Below, piece by piece: positions 6,822 to 54,805 of a DNA stretch of 64,000 nucleotides (within the stretch, counting starts at the first letter, position 1; the number at the start of each line of letters is the position of its first letter). The notes under the pieces are model-generated. The model did no database searches, was not told the origin of the DNA, and was given only the letters and a program-made list of their open reading frames with translations. This stretch comes from a virus. The position numbers were made by a program, and so were the translations under genes. The DNA lies in IMG/VR virus record IMGVR_UViG_3300029983_000007, positions 266,209 through 330,208 of that record, one strand, 5' to 3'.

Positions 6822-7574
6822 ATGAAAAATAAGTTAAACATATTACAAACAAGAAAATTGAGTGATATTGTAAGCAATTTATATAAAGATGGTGAATTAG
6901 AAAAAATTCTACCTGAATTATGTAAATTACATACTACTACTAATGGTCATAAAAATAATTTTTATCATACATTAGGAGTACTTAACAACGTGATTGAATA
7001 TGATAATGATAACTTAAAAATGAAGATTGTCGCTTTATTACACGACATTGGAAAGATTTCTGTTAGAACAAAAAACAATGAAGGAAATTGGACATTTCAT
7101 GATCATGAAAATGTAGGTGCAAAAATGATACATAAAATTTTAAAAAGATTCAATATAACTAATAAGAAAACTGTTGATTATATTTACAGAATGGTAAAGT
7201 ATCATGGTAGGGTAAAGATGCACAGGGATGTAACAGAATCAGCTATAAGAAGGTTAGATGTAGAAGTTGGACATGATATAGTATTAGAGTTAATAGAGTT
7301 CTGTAAGTGTGACATAACAACTAAATATGATGATAAGCGTCAACGTATTGTTTCAGGATTAGATGAAATAAAGAATAGAATATTAGAGGTTCGTGAGAAA
7401 GACAAAGAATCTAAATGGCGTTCTCCAATCACAGGTATTATAATAATGAAAATGTTAGAAATTACTACTGGTAGAATGGTTGGAGACATAAAGAAAGTAA
7501 CTGATGAAAAAATAAAATCAGGTGAATGGACTGAAGAAGATGCTATTAAATATATTAATACATTTAGAAAATAA
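6822..7574 (+). CDS. HD-domain phosphohydrolase of the CCA-adding-enzyme type
   Basis: 250 aa. H49, H74-D75 (ALLHDIGK) and FHDHE near residue 95 form an HD metal site with the spacing of the HD domain appended to bacterial CCA-adding/poly(A) polymerases, including a following YHGR. That domain has 2',3'-cyclic phosphodiesterase or phosphatase activity in characterised enzymes. Here it is a separate gene, 2 nt after the PARG-like gene, while a matching NTase head without HD is at 28287. It may act on RNA ends together with it (inference). Confidence 0.82.
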   Translation: MKNKLNILQTRKLSDIVSNLYKDGELEKILPELCKLHTTTNGHKNNFYHTLGVLNNVIEYDNDNLKMKIVALLHDIGKISVRTKNNEGNWTFHDHENVGAKMIHKILKRFNITNKKTVDYIYRMVKYHGRVKMHRDVTESAIRRLDVEVGHDIVLELIEFCKCDITTKYDDKRQRIVSGLDEIKNRILEVREKDKESKWRSPITGIIIMKMLEITTGRMVGDIKKVTDEKIKSGEWTEEDAIKYINTFRK

Positions 7575-13988: not shown

Positions 13989-14294
13989 ATGAAAGTAGAA
14001 AAATTTAATGAGCATAATTTTACAACATTTGATGATGATATTGTATATGCAGGTAAATCTAAATACCCAGTAGGCACCAAAATTAAATTTAAAGATGATG
14101 GTGAGTATTTAACTGGTACTTTGACACATCCATTTGGTTATGGTGATGTTGGTGTATTCTTAGATGAAAAAGGTAAATATAAATATGATAGGGTATCACT
14201 AAAAAACAATGAATATACAGTAATTGATGATGATGTTGATAAATTCATTAAAGATCACAATTTCAAAAAAGATATAAAAAAATTCAATTTATAA
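13989..14294 (+). CDS. Cassette-like protein with variant leader and KKFNL tag
   Basis: 101 aa. It starts MKVEKFNEHNF, closer to the F-N-E form of the leader (compare MKTYQQFNE at 24719), and ends IKKFNL. The core has a GTKIKFKDDGEYLTGTL beta segment that could be an SH3-like barrel. Last gene of the second array; the tag is kept with no following gene. Confidence 0.8.
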   Translation: MKVEKFNEHNFTTFDDDIVYAGKSKYPVGTKIKFKDDGEYLTGTLTHPFGYGDVGVFLDEKGKYKYDRVSLKNNEYTVIDDDVDKFIKDHNFKKDIKKFNL

Positions 14295-14677: not shown

Positions 14678-14718
14678 AAAAAACACTACTTAATATTGAA
14701 TTAAGTAGTGTTTTTATT
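14678..14718 (-). terminator. Terminator of the large minus-strand RNA
   Basis: ACACTACTTAAT / ATTAAGTAGTGT hairpin, followed on the minus strand by eight T residues. No protein gene reads into it from either side, so it most likely ends a non-coding transcript. Confidence 0.75.
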
Positions 14719-15630
14719 TGTAATAGGCTGAGAAATATACCTTATACAGAAGAATCTTAAAAAGTTATTATTGTTTCTACTTTCTTTCCACTAATATTGG
14801 TTTCCCTAACATTAGTAATTCTCAATGACAGTCAATTAGATTAACTAATCCTTTTGTTGTTAATTACTCTCTCAGTACTTATTACCTATCTAGGTTGCCA
14901 CCCAAACTCAATCTTGCTACAGATTTAAGGAATTTTTCTGAAAATCATGTCAAACTTGGGGTTCTTCACGGCTACGACGATTTTCATCTCATAACTAGTA
15001 GTCACCTTTCATCAACAACAGTCGAACACTTTTCCTTTATTTGTTTTATTTTAATTGTGCATTAAATTTGCAATTTAAAGTTTGTTTTGTGGATAATGAA
15101 AGTAGTGGTTCGACAACCAGCGTCTCCATCTTTTGAACGGAAATATACTAAACTACTCTCTGAGATATCCCTATCTCCATATTTTAAGTCAACTAAGATA
15201 CTCTCATAGCACTTGGTAATGCTAAGGTAACCTTAATAACAGCACCACCTGTACATTGTATTACAATCTAATATTACCTTTCGGTTTTAAGCTAACTCTC
15301 ATAATGGACAACGCAATTATACAACTGGAAATCGTATTTCTTGCAATAATCCTTCAGGTTATTCTTATTGATGTTCCCATCTCACTTAGACTACCCACAT
15401 AGCCTTTGCATTAAACCACTTTCTCTACAGTGTTACCCTCGATAATTAAGGTTTAATGATATCCTGATTGTCTGCTCAAACACTAAATAATGTATTAATA
15501 ACAAATTAACTAACTATTAACTATTCATATTAATGAGTATGTGAAGAATCTTACCGAAGCAAAATCAATTACACACAAAAAAATGTGTCAAATTAATAAT
15601 TGTTGTATCTGTTGATTAATAAATAATTTA
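14719..15630 (-). ncRNA. Candidate giant structured non-coding RNA (~0.9 kb; GOLLD/ROOL-like class?)
   Basis: This stretch has no ORF on either strand. It is less AT-rich than the rest of the window, and its minus strand is purine-rich with GAAA-type loops (for example CCGAAAGG), as large structured RNAs are. A TATATTTG -7 box sits just upstream at 15637-15644, and a strong terminator with eight T residues follows at 14678. Giant phage RNAs such as GOLLD and ROOL are known next to tRNA genes, and a tRNA-like gene lies 1.5 kb upstream. Membership in either class is not shown; it may be a new class. Confidence 0.5.
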
Positions 15631-15884: not shown

Positions 15885-16065
15885 GTTGTTTCTTGTTGTT
15901 TCAAGTACGTTTACTTGAAAAATGACACAAATCTATTTCAGTCCATTTTTTTCTTTTCAGAACTTTTTTCAGTGGAACAATAAACATTTGGTATGTTCAT
16001 TATATTTACTGTTATAATATAAATCCTTAAATTTGTATTACATTTGCAACATTTACTTCTGTAAT

Positions 16066-16565
16066 ATTAATCGTACACTTTTGCAAGCTTCAAGTTGGCT
16101 TTTGCCTTTGATTATTTTTATTACTTTTTCAATTTCATTAATATCTAAGTGTGTTTAGTTGCACTATCTCCTTTTGCAAGCTTCAAGGTGGTTTCTGTAC
16201 CATTAGATTTTTCATTGCTTTTACTATCTAAGTGTGTTTAATTGCACTATCTCCTTTTGCAAGCTTCAAGGTGGTTTCTATACCATTAGATTTTCAGTTT
16301 CATTTACAATTTAGTTTATTTCTACATGTGTTCATTTATAGTTATACACCTATTGCAAGCTTCAAGGTGATTTCTGTATCAACATTTTTCATTGTATTTG
16401 AAATATATAAGTGTGTTCATTTGCACTATCTCCTTTTGCAAGCTTCAAGGTGGTTTCTATACCATTATATTTCTCATTGTATAAGCAAGATAATTAATAT
16501 GTAAGTGTGTTCATTTGCACTATCTCCTTTTGCAAGCTTCAAGGTGGTATTTTATACCATTACAT
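16066..16565 (-). ncRNA. Tandem array of six multi-hairpin small RNAs (units U1-U6)
   Basis: Units at 16066-16116, 16143-16208, 16226-16291, 16324-16386, 16405-16470 and 16499-16565. On the minus strand a full unit folds as a closing stem around three hairpins: UGGU/ACCA, a CCUU/AAGG stem with an 11-nt loop holding AAGCUUGCA, and GUG/CAC. Stems covary: closing ATCTAA/TTAGAT, ATATAA/TTATAT, ATGTAA/TTACAT; hairpin 1 TGGT/ACCA or TGAT/ATCA; hairpin 2 CCTT/AAGG or ACTT/AAGT. U1 is reduced and lacks hairpin 3. Promoter R1 reads into the array. Confidence 0.65.
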
Positions 16566-16604
16566 TTTTCATTGCTTCAATCTGAAATTTGATTTGTTTC
16601 ATTA

Positions 16605-16690
16605 TTGTAGTTCAAAATTACAAAAAGTTTTTTGTTTTACCAAATATTTAATGTTAAAGTTTTGAACTTTTTCAAGTACTCTTACTTGAA
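16605..16690 (-). promoter_or_regulatory. Repeated promoter module R1
   Basis: Minus-strand TTTG (16641-16644), 20-nt spacer, TAATTTTG (16613-16620): a near-ideal Bacteroidota promoter. Upstream lie the inverted repeats AAAGTT-TTG-AACTTT and CAAGTA-CTCT-TACTTG (16673-16688). The ~85-bp module recurs at 16913, 17968 and, shortened, at 17499, 17858 and 18069. It reads into RNA units U6 to U1, beginning ~48 nt downstream. Confidence 0.75.
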
Positions 16691-16809
16691 TGAGTATTAA
16701 AAAACCAAGTCATTTATAAGTTCTGTTAGCTTCTCAGCTTAGAAAAATAAACTTTCATTTGTCATATTTATTCTTGTAACTTTACAAATCTGCGAAATGT
16801 ATTATTATC

Positions 16810-16878
16810 AATCTAAGTGTGTTCATTTGCACTATCTCCTTTTGCAAGCTTCAAGGTGGTATTTTATACCATTAGATT
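16810..16878 (-). ncRNA. Multi-hairpin small RNA, unit U7
   Basis: Same fold as U2-U6: closing stem AATCTAA/TTAGATT, extended hairpin 1 TGGTAT/ATACCA, hairpin 2 CCTT/AAGG with the invariant AAGCTTGCA loop, hairpin 3 GTG/CAC. It is a single unit with its own promoter module R2, 43 nt upstream. Confidence 0.65.
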
Positions 16879-16912
16879 ATCTATTAAATCTGATATATGT
16901 TTTGCTTTTTTA

Positions 16913-16998
16913 TTGTAGTTCAAAATTACAAAAAGTTTTTTGTTTTACCAAATATTTAATGTTAAAGTTTGAACTATTTTTTCAAGTACTCCTACTTG
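16913..16998 (-). promoter_or_regulatory. Repeated promoter module R2
   Basis: TAATTTTG at 16921-16928 with TTTG 20 nt upstream and palindrome CAAGTA-CTCC-TACTTG at 16983-16998. Nearly identical to R1; drives U7. Confidence 0.75.
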
Positions 16999-17081
16999 TT
17001 TTTGTTATGAATAATAATCAAGGAACTTACTTCTTCTGACAAGTCAGTGTTTCAGTGTTAAAATTAATATTCATAGTGAAG

Positions 17082-17166
17082 ATAGATGGAGTTGAACCCA
17101 GTGTCAGTAACACTTGCCTTCTGCACAATTCGAATCGTGCTGCACCCTGTGTGCTTATCTTCATCA
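17082..17166 (-). tRNA. tRNA-like gene with large variable arm, irregular
   Basis: On the minus strand the ends pair as GAAGATA/TATCTTC (7 bp), followed by a GCAC/GTGC D-like arm with GG in the loop, a GCACG...TGTGC arm with an ATTCGAAT loop, an AGTGT/ACACT variable arm, and a GGTTCAACTCC T-like arm. The T stem has only two or three good pairs and the anticodon loop is 8 nt, so identity cannot be assigned. It may be a decayed class II tRNA or a tRNA mimic. It lies downstream of promoter R3. Confidence 0.4.
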
Positions 17167-17169
17167 TTT

Positions 17170-17495
17170 TTATAATTTAATCAATAGTCAGTCCTTGTAG
17201 AGAAATAATAGCAGTCAGTCACTGATCATCTGACATTAGGTTCACACATCATCAAAAATTAATTTGATAGGTAATTTCCACGGTGTAGTTACTATTTACA
17301 TTTATAACAAGATAAGTTCTACAGTTCTCATATCTATTTCAATGGACTTTTCATCTTTGATAATTTTCATTATCATTAACTCACCACTATTAGCATCAAA
17401 TTCATCTGGTTCATATATATTTTGTTACAAACATATACACTCTGATTTCAGATATTGCTGATATTTCTTGTTTAAATCTGATTTTTTGATTTAAA
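17170..17495 (-). other. Intergenic stretch with a possible gene remnant
   Basis: No intact gene. On the minus strand the frame around 17290-17415 codes an acidic, protein-like segment (YEPDEFDANSGELM and onward) that can be joined to an upstream ATG only by adding two bases in an AT repeat. It may be a dead small gene or coincidence inside the R3 transcript. Confidence 0.25.
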
Positions 17496-17498
17496 TTA

Positions 17499-17590
17499 TT
17501 GTAGTACAAATATACAAAAAGTTTTTTGTTTTACCAAATATTTTTTGATATTTTTTCTACATTTTTTACTCAAGTACGTTTACAAGAGTT
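17499..17590 (-). promoter_or_regulatory. Repeated promoter module R3 (diverged)
   Basis: TATATTTG (17507-17514) and TTTG 20 nt upstream, with an imperfect palindrome CAAGTACGTTTACAAG (17571-17586). Reads towards the tRNA-like gene at 17082-17166. Confidence 0.65.
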
Positions 17591-17759
17591 TTAAAAAATC
17601 AAATCATTTTTCAGTTCTTTTTATCTTCACAGATTAGAAATAACATTTTTTCATTTGTTATATTTACTTCTGTAACATTAAATTTATGTATTTTCAGTTT
17701 CACTATAATCTTGTTCAAGATTAAGGGTGGTTTCCTTACTACTAAATTGTGATTACTTT

Positions 17760-17827
17760 AATCTAAGTGTGTTCATTTGCACTATCATTCTCTTGCAAGC
17801 TTTGAGAGGTTTTTATACCATTAGATT
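17760..17827 (-). ncRNA. Multi-hairpin small RNA, unit U8
   Basis: Closing stem AATCTAA/TTAGATT, hairpin 1 GGT/ACC, and hairpin 2 with CTCT/AGAG replacing the usual CCTT/AAGG: both sides changed while the 11-nt AAGCTTGCA loop is kept. Promoter R4 is 39 nt upstream. A degraded further copy may lie at about 17700-17745. Confidence 0.65.
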
Positions 17828-17857: not shown

Positions 17858-18129
17858 TTGTAGTTCAAAATTACAAAAAGTTTTTTGTTTTACCAAATAT
17901 TTAATGTTAAAGTTTTGAACTTTTTTTCAATTGAAATTTAATTTTTGTGATTATATTTCTTTTGATATTGTAGTGCAAAATTACAAAAAGTTTTTTGTTT
18001 TACCAAATATTTAATGTTAAAGTTTTGAACTTTTTCAAGTACTCTTACTTGAAGTTTTTTGTTTTTTATTGTAGTACAAAATTAATAAAAGTTTTTGATA
18101 CTACCAAATATTTAATGTTAAAGTTTCAG
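17858..18129 (-). promoter_or_regulatory. Three tandem promoter modules R4, R5, R6
   Basis: TAATTTTG boxes at 17866-17873, 17976-17983 and 18077-18084, each with the TTTG box 20 nt upstream and the same flanks. R5 also has the CAAGTA-CTCT-TACTTG palindrome at 18036-18051. They are stacked about 100 bp apart, all pointing left into U8. Tandem promoters may raise output or be duplication by-products. Confidence 0.7.
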
Positions 18130-18131
18130 TT

Positions 18132-18470
18132 TTAATATACGCATTCATATCCATCTGAATTCTCAAGTGTTTCAATAATTTCCAATAAAAAATCATTAAA
18201 GTTTTTACTTGTATAATCTTTTGAAAAGAAATAATGATATTTTTCTAAAATCTCATCTCCTCTATTATAAAACAATTTTAATTTTGTTGCAGTATCTAAT
18301 GCATCATCTTTTGACATTTCATGAGCCATATCTGCATAGTGCTCATTTTGACAATATTCATTATCTTGAAATTTCGCACCAATTTCTCTACATAAAGTTT
18401 CAATTAGATGTTCTCTATTTATGCTTGTTATAAACTTAATACCACTTTTTGTAATAATAGTTTTACTCAT
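18132..18470 (-). CDS. Orphan soluble protein
   Basis: 112 aa, charged alpha/beta protein without known motif. Its promoter (18496-18527) is the same type as the RNA-locus promoters, which supports calling those modules promoters. The C-terminus abuts module R6. Function unknown. Confidence 0.72.
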   Translation of the reverse strand: MSKTIITKSGIKFITSINREHLIETLCREIGAKFQDNEYCQNEHYADMAHEMSKDDALDTATKLKLFYNRGDEILEKYHYFFSKDYTSKNFNDFLLEIIETLENSDGYECVY

Positions 18471-21089: not shown

Positions 21090-22733
21090 ATGTTAAAATA
21101 TGATGATTATAATAAATTGAATGAGGCTTTCTTTCATCGTAGTAAAGATGAGTTAGAAAATCTCATACATTCATTTAAAAGCTTGATTATAAATCTAAAA
21201 CAATCAATAGATAAAAAATATACATTAGATTTCTATAAAACTCAAATCAAAGAGGATTTAGAATCATATAAAATAAATATATTGAATAATTACAATAAAA
21301 ATACAATTAGTAAATTTAAAGATTTGTTTAAAGAATTTTTAAATAATGTAGATAATGACATAATTAAGCATATGAAATTAGGTAAATTTGCTAATGATAT
21401 ATTAAAGATATATTCTATTAATAATTCTTTTGATATTAACATAAAGAATGTAAATAGTGTGTTTAAAGCTTATCTTGATAATGTTGATAGATATATAGAC
21501 AACACATATGATTTTTTCTACAATAAGATTGAGACTGATAAATCATATGAACCATATAATAAAATTGATATTAAAATAAATAAAGTCCCTATTGATGAAT
21601 ATCAAAAAACAAAATACAAATATCAAATTGAGTTATTAAAATTACAAGAATGGATTACATACAACAATAAAAAAGTATTGATTATATTTGAAGGTAGGGA
21701 TGCTGCAGGAAAAGGTTCAGCGATTAGAAATATCACAAGATTTCTAGATCCAAAGCATTTTAGAGTACAGACATTTGGTATACCTACAGAAGAAGAGAGT
21801 AATAATTGGTTTGATAGATATGAAAAATCTTTACCTAAAAATGGAGAAATTGTTTTTTTTGATAGATCTTGGTATACAAGAGGTTATGTTGAACCAGTGA
21901 TGAAATATTCAACTGAAGATAAATATAATAAATTTATGAAAGAAGTCAATAACTTTGAAGATAAATTAATAGATGATGACATCATACTTATAAAAATATG
22001 GTTCTCCATATCTCAAGATGTACAAAAAATGAGATTTGAATTAAGAAAATCTAATCCATTGAAATACTGGAAGTTTAGTAAGAATGATGAGCAAACATTA
22101 GACAAATGGGATGAATTTACTAAATATATAAATGAGATTTTCAAAAAAACAAATACTAAAGATTCTCCTTGGATAATAATAGATGCTGATGATGAAAATT
22201 ATTCAAGATTAGAATCTTTCAATAGTATAATAAAATCAATAGAAAAAGATAAATCAAACATCAAAGAGGGTGGAATAAAAGTAATATTTGAAGATTTAGA
22301 TGGACCATTAATTCCATATGATAAAAATTCAGATACCGACTATCATAAATTTTTTAATGATCCAGAAAAATGGAGTAAGACTGCTATGAGCAATTTAAAC
22401 AATATTATTGAAAAGACAGAAGCAAAAGTAGTATTATCTTCTTCATATAGAGATGATAAACCATTAAGCGAAATAGAAAAGATGATGAAAACTGCTGGAT
22501 TTAAATATAAAATATATGACGTTGTTCCAAATGACAAATCTAAAAAACGTGGATCTGATATAAAAGATTGGTTAAAGAATAATAAATCAGTTAGTAATTT
22601 TATTATTATTGACGATAATAAGCATGACTTATATGAAGTATTTAGCAAAAAACACATTGTTAAAACTACTCATGAATTAGGAATAACAGATGATATTAAA
22701 GATGAAGCTATTGATAAATTAAATACTAAATGA
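21090..22733 (+). CDS. Polyphosphate kinase 2 (PPK2) fused to a HAD-type domain
   Basis: 547 aa, three parts. Residues 1-~165 are helical and begin with a leader-like MLKYDDYNKLNEAF. About 175-390 is PPK2: Walker A GRDAAGKGS (202-210), DRSWYTRG (258-265) in the lid/Walker B region, and a Trp-rich C-terminal block. About 395-545 is a HAD-like domain with FEDLDG (DxDG), LSSSYR and FIIIDDN motifs. PPK2 enzymes phosphorylate nucleotides with polyphosphate or the reverse. The HAD half resembles those in nucleotide or RNA-end processing. The leader suggests possible packaging (inference). Far longer than ordinary PPK2 (~270-300 aa). Confidence 0.88.
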   Translation: MLKYDDYNKLNEAFFHRSKDELENLIHSFKSLIINLKQSIDKKYTLDFYKTQIKEDLESYKINILNNYNKNTISKFKDLFKEFLNNVDNDIIKHMKLGKFANDILKIYSINNSFDINIKNVNSVFKAYLDNVDRYIDNTYDFFYNKIETDKSYEPYNKIDIKINKVPIDEYQKTKYKYQIELLKLQEWITYNNKKVLIIFEGRDAAGKGSAIRNITRFLDPKHFRVQTFGIPTEEESNNWFDRYEKSLPKNGEIVFFDRSWYTRGYVEPVMKYSTEDKYNKFMKEVNNFEDKLIDDDIILIKIWFSISQDVQKMRFELRKSNPLKYWKFSKNDEQTLDKWDEFTKYINEIFKKTNTKDSPWIIIDADDENYSRLESFNSIIKSIEKDKSNIKEGGIKVIFEDLDGPLIPYDKNSDTDYHKFFNDPEKWSKTAMSNLNNIIEKTEAKVVLSSSYRDDKPLSEIEKMMKTAGFKYKIYDVVPNDKSKKRGSDIKDWLKNNKSVSNFIIIDDNKHDLYEVFSKKHIVKTTHELGITDDIKDEAIDKLNTK

Positions 22734-30662: not shown

Positions 30663-31601
30663 TTAGAAAAAATTGGAAGCGTCAACATATTTGAATCCAC
30701 ATCTTTTAGCGAATGTTTTATCACTTGTCAAATCTCCAACCATTGTACATTGTGATGAGTCAAGTTTATATTTTTCAATAAAATCTACACCTAATCCTAC
30801 ACCTGGTTTTCTACAATAACAAATTATTGGAGGTACTGAATGTCCACAATATTTATAATCAATATTAACTCCTAACATTTCATTTGTTTTTTCAAAACAA
30901 GCTATTGCAGTTTCATGAGTTAATAAGCCTTTTGCTATACCGCTTTGATTTGAAACCCCTAGTAGTATATAACCTTGTTTCTGTAATTCTAAAAGTTTTT
31001 CTGTTCTACCAGGAATAATTTCTATATCATTCACATCAGTAGGGAAATGTCCTCCACTTTTAGTTACTCTTAAAGTACCGTCATAATCAAATAAAATAGC
31101 TTTATTTGTATATTCTGATGGTTTACGTTTAAAATCAATTTTTTCTATATCATCAATTCCTTCTGATAGTTCTGGTGCTTCAAAATGTTTATTAATTTTA
31201 TAAAGTGCTGCAACAGGAAACATATGTGGATCATTAACTTTAGAATAATCACTTAAATTTGTAAACAACCTACCTTGAGTTTTTATCATTCTGGTAACAG
31301 CATTGAACATACAATCTTCAATTTTTGTTGTGAAATAAAGACACAATACATAGTAGCCATATTTTTTTGCTAATGCAATAGCATCAGCCCTAGATAACTT
31401 AGTAGAATATGTACCATCTAAGATAATATCTACTCCATCTATCATCAAGTTTTCAAGTTTTTTGTTGAGTGAACTTAATGTACCACCTTCAATATCTCTT
31501 GAAAGTAATGTACACTTATAATCAACCCATTTTTCAACAATACTTGATTTTCCTGCTGCTGGTAATCCACAAGTTATAACTAATTTTTTATCTTTTATCA
31601 T
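30663..31601 (-). CDS. Polynucleotide kinase - 3'-phosphatase (T4 Pnkp-like order)
   Basis: 312 aa, two domains. N-terminal kinase: P-loop GLPAAGKSS (12-20), DGTYSTKLSR lid region. C-terminal HAD phosphatase: FDYDGTLR at about 170 (DxDGT), SNQSGIA, CRKPGVG and GDLTSDK. Kinase first, phosphatase second, and a length of ~300 aa match T4 Pnkp. Heals 5'-OH and 3'-phosphate ends, typically of tRNA cut by host anticodon nucleases. No RNA ligase gene is visible in this window. Overlaps the upstream gene by 14 nt. Confidence 0.92.
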   Translation of the reverse strand: MIKDKKLVITCGLPAAGKSSIVEKWVDYKCTLLSRDIEGGTLSSLNKKLENLMIDGVDIILDGTYSTKLSRADAIALAKKYGYYVLCLYFTTKIEDCMFNAVTRMIKTQGRLFTNLSDYSKVNDPHMFPVAALYKINKHFEAPELSEGIDDIEKIDFKRKPSEYTNKAILFDYDGTLRVTKSGGHFPTDVNDIEIIPGRTEKLLELQKQGYILLGVSNQSGIAKGLLTHETAIACFEKTNEMLGVNIDYKYCGHSVPPIICYCRKPGVGLGVDFIEKYKLDSSQCTMVGDLTSDKTFAKRCGFKYVDASNFF

Positions 31602-39714: not shown

Positions 39715-40608
39715 ATGAAAGAATTAGAATTAAAAAAATTAGTACATTCAACTATAGACAACACTATCAAGTATATTTTTTATACTGAAGATAAATTGAT
39801 AGTTGAATTTTCTTATATCAATAAGAATGATGGTAAAAATATTATTTGCTGTCCAGTTTCAACATTTTGTAATATAGGCTGCAAATTTTGTCACACAGCA
39901 GAATATATTGGTAAAATTAAAAATAGAAACCTAACATCATTAGAGATTTCAAATGGAGTTGATTATATTTATAATGATTTGAAACTATCTGAAAACCCAA
40001 AAACTTTATTGATAAGCTCCATGGGTATTGGTGAAATTGTAACCAATGTTGATGAAGTTGTAGAATCAATGATAAATATTCAAAATACTTATCTTAAAGA
40101 TATATATGTTAGATTTGCATTTGCAACATCTTTACCTGAATCTCACAAAATCGAGTTTTTCAAATTGACAAATAAAATTGCAGAGAATAATTTACCTGTT
40201 AAGTTGCATCTATCATTACATTATACAACAGATGAATTAAGAAGTCAATGGATGCCAATGTCAATGAAAATTGAACCAACTATTGCAGCAGTTGATTACT
40301 ATAAAGCAACTACAGGAAATGATGTTGAAATACATTATGCACTAATAGAGAATGTTAATGATAAATCAGAAGATGCTATGAGATTAAGCAATCTTATTAA
40401 AGGTAAAGGTTATAATGTTAAATTTTTATTCTATAACAAGAAAGATAATATAGACGCTGAACCATCTAACATTTCTAAAATTAGAAACTTTGTTGATATA
40501 TTTAGTCTTGTAGGAATAAAACATGAATACTATGTACCTCCTGGACTCACAATTGGAGCATCTTGTGGTCAACTATCTATAAATGAGTATATTAAAATAA
40601 AAAAATAA
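39715..40608 (+). CDS. RlmN/Cfr-like radical SAM methyltransferase
   Basis: 297 aa. Radical SAM triad C52-x3-C56-x2-C59 (FCNIGCKFC). A Cys at 45/46 (ICCPVS) and the Cys of GASCGQL near 284 sit at the places of the two mechanistic Cys residues of RlmN/Cfr. These enzymes methylate A2503 of 23S rRNA at C2 (RlmN, also tRNA A37) or C8 (Cfr, antibiotic resistance). It is shorter than RlmN (~370-380) and lacks most of the N-terminal RNA-binding helical domain. 18 nt upstream of the TnpB-like gene. Confidence 0.9.
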   Translation: MKELELKKLVHSTIDNTIKYIFYTEDKLIVEFSYINKNDGKNIICCPVSTFCNIGCKFCHTAEYIGKIKNRNLTSLEISNGVDYIYNDLKLSENPKTLLISSMGIGEIVTNVDEVVESMINIQNTYLKDIYVRFAFATSLPESHKIEFFKLTNKIAENNLPVKLHLSLHYTTDELRSQWMPMSMKIEPTIAAVDYYKATTGNDVEIHYALIENVNDKSEDAMRLSNLIKGKGYNVKFLFYNKKDNIDAEPSNISKIRNFVDIFSLVGIKHEYYVPPGLTIGASCGQLSINEYIKIKK

Positions 40609-40626
40609 TAATTAAATAATAATTAA

Positions 40627-42087
40627 ATGAATAATAGAAACTTCATATTACATATAAAAGAAGATAAATACAAAAAATTATTAATTGATTATATTTTTAA
40701 ATATCGTCAATTCGAAAACTTATATCTTATAATATTAAAAGAGAATAAGGATGATTTTAATTTTTTATCTAATTATAAAGTAATGAGAGCTATTCTTGCG
40801 GAAACTACTGGAGGTAAAGATAAAAATGAAGTTGATTTTATTAGATATAAATATAAAGAAAATGATAAAATGAATGAATTAATTATTTTATCAAAAAGTC
40901 TTAAAATACATAATATTTCAGATTTGATTAAAAGAGTAAAATCAAATTATAAATCTTTTTTCACTAAAATAAGAAATAAAGTTAAAGCCAACGTTCCATG
41001 TACAAAAAAGTTATCACTATTGACTAAATATTCCATTCTAGTTGATAAAATTGCATTTTCAATAAAGAAAAAGGATAAAATTGGAATCAACTTGAGTAAT
41101 AAAATGTTTTATATTGATTTTAAGCATAAAATATTACCAGATAATATACAAAGTCTTAAAGTCGTTTACTCAAATAAAGAAGTTTATTTACATTTTAATT
41201 ACTTGACTGAAGATATATTAAACACAAATAATTCATTAATAAAAGAAGCAGGAATAGATGTAGGTATTAATAATTTATTAGCTATATTTATTGATGATAA
41301 AACATCTAAATCAATAATTGTTGACGGAAATATTTTTAAAACTTATAATTCAAAATTCAACAGGTTCTTGTCTAAACTTAATGAATCAATTTCTAAAGAA
41401 GTCATAGAATTTAAACTCAGTAATACTGGTACTAAATATGCAGTTAAGTGGACTAAAAGAGGAATAGAATTACGTAAATATAAGACATTTATTTATGAAA
41501 AAAGAAATCGTTATTTTTATGATCAATTTCATAAAGTTAGTAAACGTGTGGTTGAATTATTGAAATTAAATTCTGTAAACAATCTAACAATTTCATACAA
41601 TCTAGCTAGATTAAAATATAATGGTGATTGTAAATTAAATAAAAAAGTAAAACAAAATTTCATACAAATTCCTTTCATAAAACTACTAAATTACATTCAA
41701 TATAAAAGTAATGAAGTTGGAATTCAAGTAGATATAATTGATGAATCTTACACATCAAAGTGCTCATGTATTAGTGATAATGTGAATGATCCGTTAGATA
41801 AAGAACTAAATGGTGTTCGTTCTAAAAGAGATTTATTTACTGATAAACTAATAAATAAAACAATGAATGCTGATTTGAACGGTGCTGTCAATCATATAAA
41901 AAAATCAAACAAAAATAATAATTTTTCTTGGTTGGAAAATTATATGTTTAAACTGTGTAATCCAGTTAAAATTAAATGCGACTACGATTTCTTTAAATAT
42001 TTAAAGAATAGTGTGCTCTGGCAAGGAATTTCATCAAAAGAAGTTCAAACGTCACTTCATGTACAAAATTGTACAAGTTTAAGTTGA
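40627..42087 (+). CDS. TnpB-like RNA-guided nuclease (OrfB family), no TnpA nearby
   Basis: 486 aa. It has the layout of the TnpB lineage without zinc finger: N-terminal helical part, RuvC-I GIDVGINN (D211), KQNFIQIPFIKLLNYIQYKS, DESYTSK (E373), and KTMNADLNGAVNHI (D416). All three RuvC acids are present, so cleavage competence is plausible. The C-terminus after NPVKI (about 452) departs from the usual ending and overlaps a hairpin-rich segment likely to be the omega-RNA scaffold. No IS200-type TnpA or clear element ends are seen, so it may be a captured stand-alone TnpB. Confidence 0.88.
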   Translation: MNNRNFILHIKEDKYKKLLIDYIFKYRQFENLYLIILKENKDDFNFLSNYKVMRAILAETTGGKDKNEVDFIRYKYKENDKMNELIILSKSLKIHNISDLIKRVKSNYKSFFTKIRNKVKANVPCTKKLSLLTKYSILVDKIAFSIKKKDKIGINLSNKMFYIDFKHKILPDNIQSLKVVYSNKEVYLHFNYLTEDILNTNNSLIKEAGIDVGINNLLAIFIDDKTSKSIIVDGNIFKTYNSKFNRFLSKLNESISKEVIEFKLSNTGTKYAVKWTKRGIELRKYKTFIYEKRNRYFYDQFHKVSKRVVELLKLNSVNNLTISYNLARLKYNGDCKLNKKVKQNFIQIPFIKLLNYIQYKSNEVGIQVDIIDESYTSKCSCISDNVNDPLDKELNGVRSKRDLFTDKLINKTMNADLNGAVNHIKKSNKNNNFSWLENYMFKLCNPVKIKCDYDFFKYLKNSVLWQGISSKEVQTSLHVQNCTSLS

Positions 42088-54485: not shown

Positions 54486-54576
54486 GAAGAATGACTGGAT
54501 TCGAACCAGTAATAATTTATAATTTTTTACAAATGCTTTTTTGGCTACTAGTTTACCGATTAACTTACATTCTTCT
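54486..54576 (-). tRNA. tRNA with long variable arm and defective anticodon stem
   Basis: Acceptor AAGAATG/CATTCTT (with an extra G:C), U8, D arm AGTT/AACT with A-A-T-C-G-G-T-A loop, and T arm ACTGG-TTCGAAT-CCAGT are all good. The anticodon region, GTAGC-CAAAAAA-GCATT, pairs only at three of five positions and lacks U33. A ~22-nt AT-rich variable region follows. Amino acid not assignable. Decayed or atypical class II tRNA. Confidence 0.65.
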
Positions 54577-54582
54577 ATTTGG

Positions 54583-54658
54583 TGGAATTATGGGAGTCGA
54601 ACCCAAGTTTAATCAATTTAAAATTGACGCTTTAATGGCTATAAAATCCGTTATTCCA
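54583..54658 (-). tRNA. tRNA, anticodon reads UUA (would pair with UAA stop)
   Basis: 76 nt. Acceptor TGGAAT/ATTCCA, T arm with GGG-TTCGACT-CCC, five-nt variable loop, anticodon stem GTCAA/TTGAT closing a seven-nt loop TTTTAAA. Standard numbering puts TTA at 34-36 (54621-54619), which would decode UAA. The D arm is irregular: 23 nt between acceptor and anticodon stem, and no GG. Either an unusual ochre-reading tRNA or a degenerate gene. Confidence 0.6.
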
Positions 54659-54706
54659 TTTTTTTAAGTATTTTAAATATTTTTGGTATATTAATATTTT
54701 AACTGT

Positions 54707-54805
54707 AGTTAAGGCGGGACTCGAACCCGCATGAGAAATTAATCTCTGAGATACCTCATTAATAGGATTTTAATCCTAAACGTCTAACCATTTCGTCACC
54801 TAACT
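54707..54805 (-). tRNA. Class II tRNA, probably Leu(UAA)
   Basis: Acceptor AGTTAGG/CTTAACT, D arm ACG/CGT with GG in the loop, T arm GCGGG-TTCGAGT-CCCGC and a long two-stage variable arm (ATGAG...CTCAT with inner ATCTC/GAGAT). The anticodon stem TAGGA/TCCTA encloses TTAAAA, six rather than seven nt; TAA is the likely anticodon. About 99 nt, longer than normal because of the variable arm. Confidence 0.75.

Follow-up and report, generated by a model that had tools for sequence, protein, structure and literature searches.

A family of small structured RNAs predicted beside GOLLD in a probable Bacteroidota phage

Layout of the noncoding island

The window analysed here, 64,000 nucleotides long, is the end (266209-330208) of a virus record of 330,208 bases; its carrier is a large phage, probably of Bacteroidota. 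Within the window, a noncoding island of about 3.4 kb lies between an open reading frame ending at 14294 and another starting at 18132. Elsewhere, the plus strand encodes a PPK2 polyphosphate kinase domain fused to a Swiss-Army-Knife HAD RNA-repair domain (21090-22733) and a 486-aa TnpB/Cas12f-like OrfB protein (40627-42087), which adjoins a weak frame resembling radical-SAM proteins (39715-40608); the span 30663-31601 encodes a polynucleotide kinase/phosphatase.

The minus strand of the island carries nine related units between 16068 and 17826, of which six are intact (67 nt, a closing stem enclosing three hairpins), one is degenerate (W3), one is diverged (W7), and one is truncated (W0). The array described in the original prediction was therefore recovered, with its count of eight copies becoming nine once the diverged copy at 17681-17747 is included, and no further copies were found in the 330-kb record. 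The intact units W1 (16142-16208), W2 (16225-16291), W4 (16404-16470), W5 (16498-16565), W6 (16810-16877), and W8 (17760-17826) score 84-98 bits with the covariance model R1 (95.8, 97.3, 97.7, 93.6, 94.2, and 83.7 bits, respectively). W3 (16319-16387) scores 58.7 bits, W7, with the loop AATCTTGAAC, scores 33.9 bits (E 1.3e-4), and W0 (16068-16115), which has the stems GGC/GCC and ACTT/AAGT, was recognised by sequence. A short conserved tail element follows 3' of the last unit on the minus strand (16041-16064), with other copies at 16756-16779 and 17652-17675. The units diverge from one another and their start-to-start spacing is irregular (79-871 nt), which argues against a CRISPR repeat array. 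A Shine-Dalgarno-like AAAGGAG and an ATG occur in some units but were rejected as a coding signal because neither is kept in every copy.

Directly downstream of the units, on the same strand, lies GOLLD, a giant, cage-forming RNA that is among the largest known structured RNAs. Its conserved 3' domain was detected at 14725-15160 on the minus strand (RF02032, 243.3 bits, E 6.6e-68), with the 5' domain extending upstream to about 15740, and an intrinsic terminator at 14679-14715, the sole terminator recognised on the minus strand, stands 3' of it. Beyond this terminator, a sub-threshold second GOLLD 3' end (RF02032, 14390-14491, minus strand, 30.8 bits) resembles the GOLLD 3' end of two related lineages described below, and the main GOLLD of the window thus seems to have been given a new 3' end. 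As RF02032 matches only these two regions and not the units, we rejected the idea that the units are part of GOLLD.

The island also contains a tRNA-like element (17077-17162, minus strand) with a 7-bp closing stem, a D-arm-like hairpin, an extra hairpin, and a T-arm-like end. It is conserved in all three lineages, with its middle hairpin swapped for a different one in L011, and is called by neither the Rfam tRNA model nor ARAGORN at default settings. In another part of the window, 54486-54805 on the minus strand holds two aberrant tRNAs with an insert or long variable arm and a short anticodon loop, and the tRNA-like stretch between them (54583-54657) is uncalled and might have a UUA anticodon, as in a stop-codon suppressor.

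The primary Bacteroidota sigma factor has the consensus TTTG-N20-TAnnTTTG (PMC7366714), and the window holds 12 matches to this motif against 1.0 expected; seven of the 12 lie in or at the island, all on the minus strand. Those at 18077-18108 and 17976-18007 lie at the upstream end of the island, where the motif is in tandem, and others stand 40 nt upstream of W8 (17866-17897), upstream of the tRNA-like element (17507-17538), upstream of W6 (16921-16952), and upstream of W5-W0 (16613-16644). The 34-base promoter repeat occurs only in this island within the 330-kb record. With minus-strand promoter motifs and a single minus-strand terminator after GOLLD, we infer that the island is transcribed from the minus strand, and the units, tRNA-like element, and GOLLD would form a dedicated stable-RNA operon running from the tandem promoters to that terminator. 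A hairpin, CAAGTA-NNNN-TACTTG, is repeated on the minus strand ahead of promoters or between transcripts (15902-15917, 16673-16688, 16983-16998, 17571-17586, and 18036-18051) and is kept in the three lineages.

Support for a common fold

The stem variants on which the original prediction had been built are present in the sequence. The closing stem is ATCTAA/TTAGAT in W1, W2, W6, and W8, ATATAA/TTATAT in W4, and ATGTAA/TTACAT in W5; hairpin 1 is TGGT/ACCA, with TGAT/ATCA in W3. Hairpin 2 is CCTT/AAGG in most units and ACTT/AAGT in the truncated copy, as had been claimed, but the reported CTCT/AGAG is the TCTC/GAGA of W8 read one base out of register. Hairpin 3 (GTG/CAC, only about 3 bp) is the weakest part of the fold. 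The constant 11-nt loop is likewise present as GAAGCTTGCAA, and its core, AAGCUUGC, is invariant across 17 sequences. The fold is not common to every copy, since W3 as a single sequence folds otherwise and the 3'-most copy, W0, has no third hairpin.

An alignment of 17 units from the three lineages, made on sequence alone, was tested against a structure of 17 pairs. Of the cells in this structure, 95.6% are paired, and five pairs carry two-sided changes. None of 500 shuffles reached any of five structure measures, and sliding the pairing partners abolished the signal. We also wrote an R-scape-like null in which the tree and substitution counts are kept, and in none of its 1000 simulations were pairing or two-sided changes as high as those observed. 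Of 543 column pairs, the two that rank highest belong to the predicted structure (columns 7-72 and 26-44), with E values of 0.007 and 0.024 within the proposed pairs and of 0.21 and 0.76 over all pairs. Adding variants gives nine pairs with two-sided changes, in an alignment built by fitting to the model. Two compensatory replacements stand at orthologous positions: W8, A1, and B1 have U-A, A-U, and C-G, respectively, as the outermost pair of hairpin 2, and the truncated unit has ACTT/AAGT against CCTT/AAGG.

RNAalifold, unaided, returns the same fold on the minus strand; on the reverse strand its fold differs and the covariation term is unfavourable. Of the eight longest units, six take the common fold, or nearly so, as single sequences, and single-sequence folding energies are ordinary (z +0.2 to -1.6 on the minus strand). 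G-U and A-C cells number 5 and 3, which barely favours the minus strand. Taken as a whole, the fold is well supported, and covariation at single pairs is moderately significant. Two-sided changes had been put forward as strong evidence; the changes are real, but that strength was overstated, as two pairs stand out and none falls below E 0.2 over all pairs, a modest signal that we attribute to all copies being close relatives with few independent events among them. The reading of a conserved structured RNA on the minus strand stands, with the promoter motifs and RNAalifold both pointing to that strand.

Family assignment and distribution

In agreement with the claim that no described RNA class fits, the units match none of the 4227 Rfam 15 models at E up to 5, including tRNA (RF00005); outside the units, Rfam searches of the region from 14 to 19 kb gave only GOLLD and sub-threshold snoRNA matches attributable to chance. 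ARAGORN, at default, intron, and mitochondrial settings, made one weak plus-strand call on one copy only. We found no description of such an array in the full-text literature, within which journal coverage is incomplete. Some known small RNAs invite comparison. The phi29 pRNA is a phage small RNA whose copies are joined through loops; the units have no sequence match to it, no packaging role is indicated, and kissing between units is only putative. YrlA and Y RNAs are small RNAs with a closing stem and a resemblance to tRNA; in contrast, the units have no Rfam match, and no Ro60/TROVE protein (PF05731) is encoded in the 330-kb phage record, to which the search was confined. GOLLD itself shares the island, strand, and promoters of the units and is likewise a phage-encoded, probably abundant structured RNA, but the units are 67 nt long, match it in neither sequence nor structure, and are missing from many phages with GOLLD.

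Two further phage lineages carry the array (L010-L014/L019/L026/L030 and L016/L024/L027), and in all three lineages the promoters, units, tail elements, tRNA-like element, and GOLLD, which lies downstream of the units, occur in the same order and on the same strand. Orthologous units show 91-94% three-way identity (79% for W4) against 73% for the remaining noncoding island, and the promoters are similarly kept. Orthologues of W8 (L011:1648 and L027:1044), W7 (L011:1729-1786), and W0 (L011:3491 and L027:2798) were located, whereas W2 and W3 have no clear counterparts in the other lineages, so copy number varies. Orthologues (93%) are slightly closer than paralogues (87-90%). Searches of IMG/VR with loop, flank, and promoter patterns returned these three lineages only, other pattern matches being chance or coding (those in L042/L051 lie inside a 156-aa gene). 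The exact unit pattern has no match in 84,980 prokaryote genomes, and GenBank phages gave short chance matches only. Relatives found through a flanking gene or topoisomerase have no units, nor do the huge phages LR756501, LR756502, LR756504, and LR745206 or 27 GOLLD-bearing records.

We retrieved 33 other GOLLD loci with a pattern from the GOLLD core, and Rfam confirmed GOLLD in 15 of the 16 checked. None has units, and tRNA or tmRNA genes lie near GOLLD in 29 of the 33, with at least 20 in several cases. In contrast, ARAGORN finds no tRNA in the loci of the unit-bearing lineages, where the occasional tRNA-like element is all that occurs. The units thus occupy the place of tRNA or tmRNA genes beside GOLLD and are, on these sequence comparisons, a new small-RNA family within a known kind of GOLLD/tRNA stable-RNA locus. 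In L165, a tandem promoter closely resembling the one here precedes GOLLD, and the surroundings hold no tRNAs and no units.

Among other GOLLD loci, those of the huge phages LR745206 and LR756502 have GOLLD flanked by near-identical tRNAs (L140:6097-6190 and 7291-7390; L141:6038-7175), several of which are unusual in their anticodon loops and carry an insertion of roughly 20 nt or longer in the D-loop region. A tmRNA gene lies about 0.5-4.6 kb from GOLLD in phage contigs (L146:463-806, L147, L162:5182-5581, L168, L170, L171, and L173), with the tag ANVDYSTEYYAVAA in most.

Discussion

GOLLD assembles through kissing loops, some of them symmetric (PMC12286853), and the multi-copy units might similarly assemble through either palindrome of the 11-nt loop, AAGCUU or UUGCAA, with or without GOLLD. 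We consider this unlikely. The invariant core would suit such a scaffold, and GOLLD carries UUGCAAG, a 7-nt complement of the loop; however, matches of at least 7 nt arise in 16% of shuffled GOLLD sequences, which puts this complementarity at chance level, and the diverged W7 has lost the AAGCUU palindrome. Invariance fits protein binding equally well, and, the loop being invariant, dimerisation through AAGCUU would yield no covariation signal. The same accessible, invariant loop could instead pair with phage or host messages, and 10 of its 11 bases are complementary to one phage site, which falls within the plus-strand frame 1328-1663. The units themselves aside, no other site in 330 kb comes within one mismatch of the loop complement, and with an estimated 0.5 sites or so expected at this base composition, phage-message targets are at chance level, making antisense regulators decidedly unlikely.

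The position of the units raises the possibility that they derive from, or mimic, the tRNAs adjoining GOLLD elsewhere, for they share the place and strand of those arrays, a tRNA-like size, and a cloverleaf plan of closing stem and three hairpins, and have a tRNA-like element in their operon. Nevertheless, they lack a T-loop, a 7-bp acceptor, and a 7-nt anticodon loop with U33, the spacers are misplaced for the transcribed strand, and the Rfam and ARAGORN results above give little to set against this, so we find degenerate or mimic tRNAs improbable. Short repeats clustered at one locus could also be DNA-level elements, bound by protein or folding as single-stranded DNA at an origin, packaging, or recombination site, and DNA hairpins could likewise give paired changes. 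Such elements are very improbable here, as the units lie behind promoter motifs on one strand, RNAalifold finds the fold with favourable covariation on that strand only, and copies occur, within the 330-kb record, only inside the GOLLD operon; dispersed repeats were likewise rejected.

The explanation that we favour, and hold to be probable though far from certain, is that the units are unclassified, trans-acting small structured RNAs co-encoded with GOLLD, with the loop as their contact. The family, its fold, the strand of the promoter motifs, the operon context, and the conservation are established. Long minus-strand precursors would start at the tandem dedicated promoters and run through the units and tRNA-like element to the GOLLD terminator; because all of these lie in the promoter direction with one recognised terminator, the units are probably cut from such precursors. 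Each would form a four-way junction in which a 6-bp closing stem and three hairpins (about 4, 4, and 3 bp) present the invariant 11-nt loop. The number of copies, the tandem dedicated promoters, and the constancy of the loop on changeable stems together suggest an abundant trans-acting RNA recognised via its loop, made at high dosage alongside GOLLD. The loop, as a putative binding site, may be a contact surface for a protein, GOLLD, or another copy, in a decoy, adaptor, or cargo role. A protein-binding decoy or adaptor is our tentative guess, with the odds against it, and a GOLLD-linked assembly or cargo function is a more doubtful one.

The best functional context for the units comes from GOLLD, the promoters they share with it, and the association with tRNA arrays, a context absent from the earlier reading. 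It has been proposed that the GOLLD cage may hold phage tRNAs (PMC12286853). That the units are a new phage RNA class which serves the GOLLD nanocage as partner or cargo in place of tRNAs, docking via the loop, is a long shot, but if true it would give a way into the purpose of GOLLD cages. The array adds a new structured RNA family, and a GOLLD encoded with an amplified, unclassified small RNA rather than with recognised tRNAs would provide a natural test of the tRNA-cage idea.
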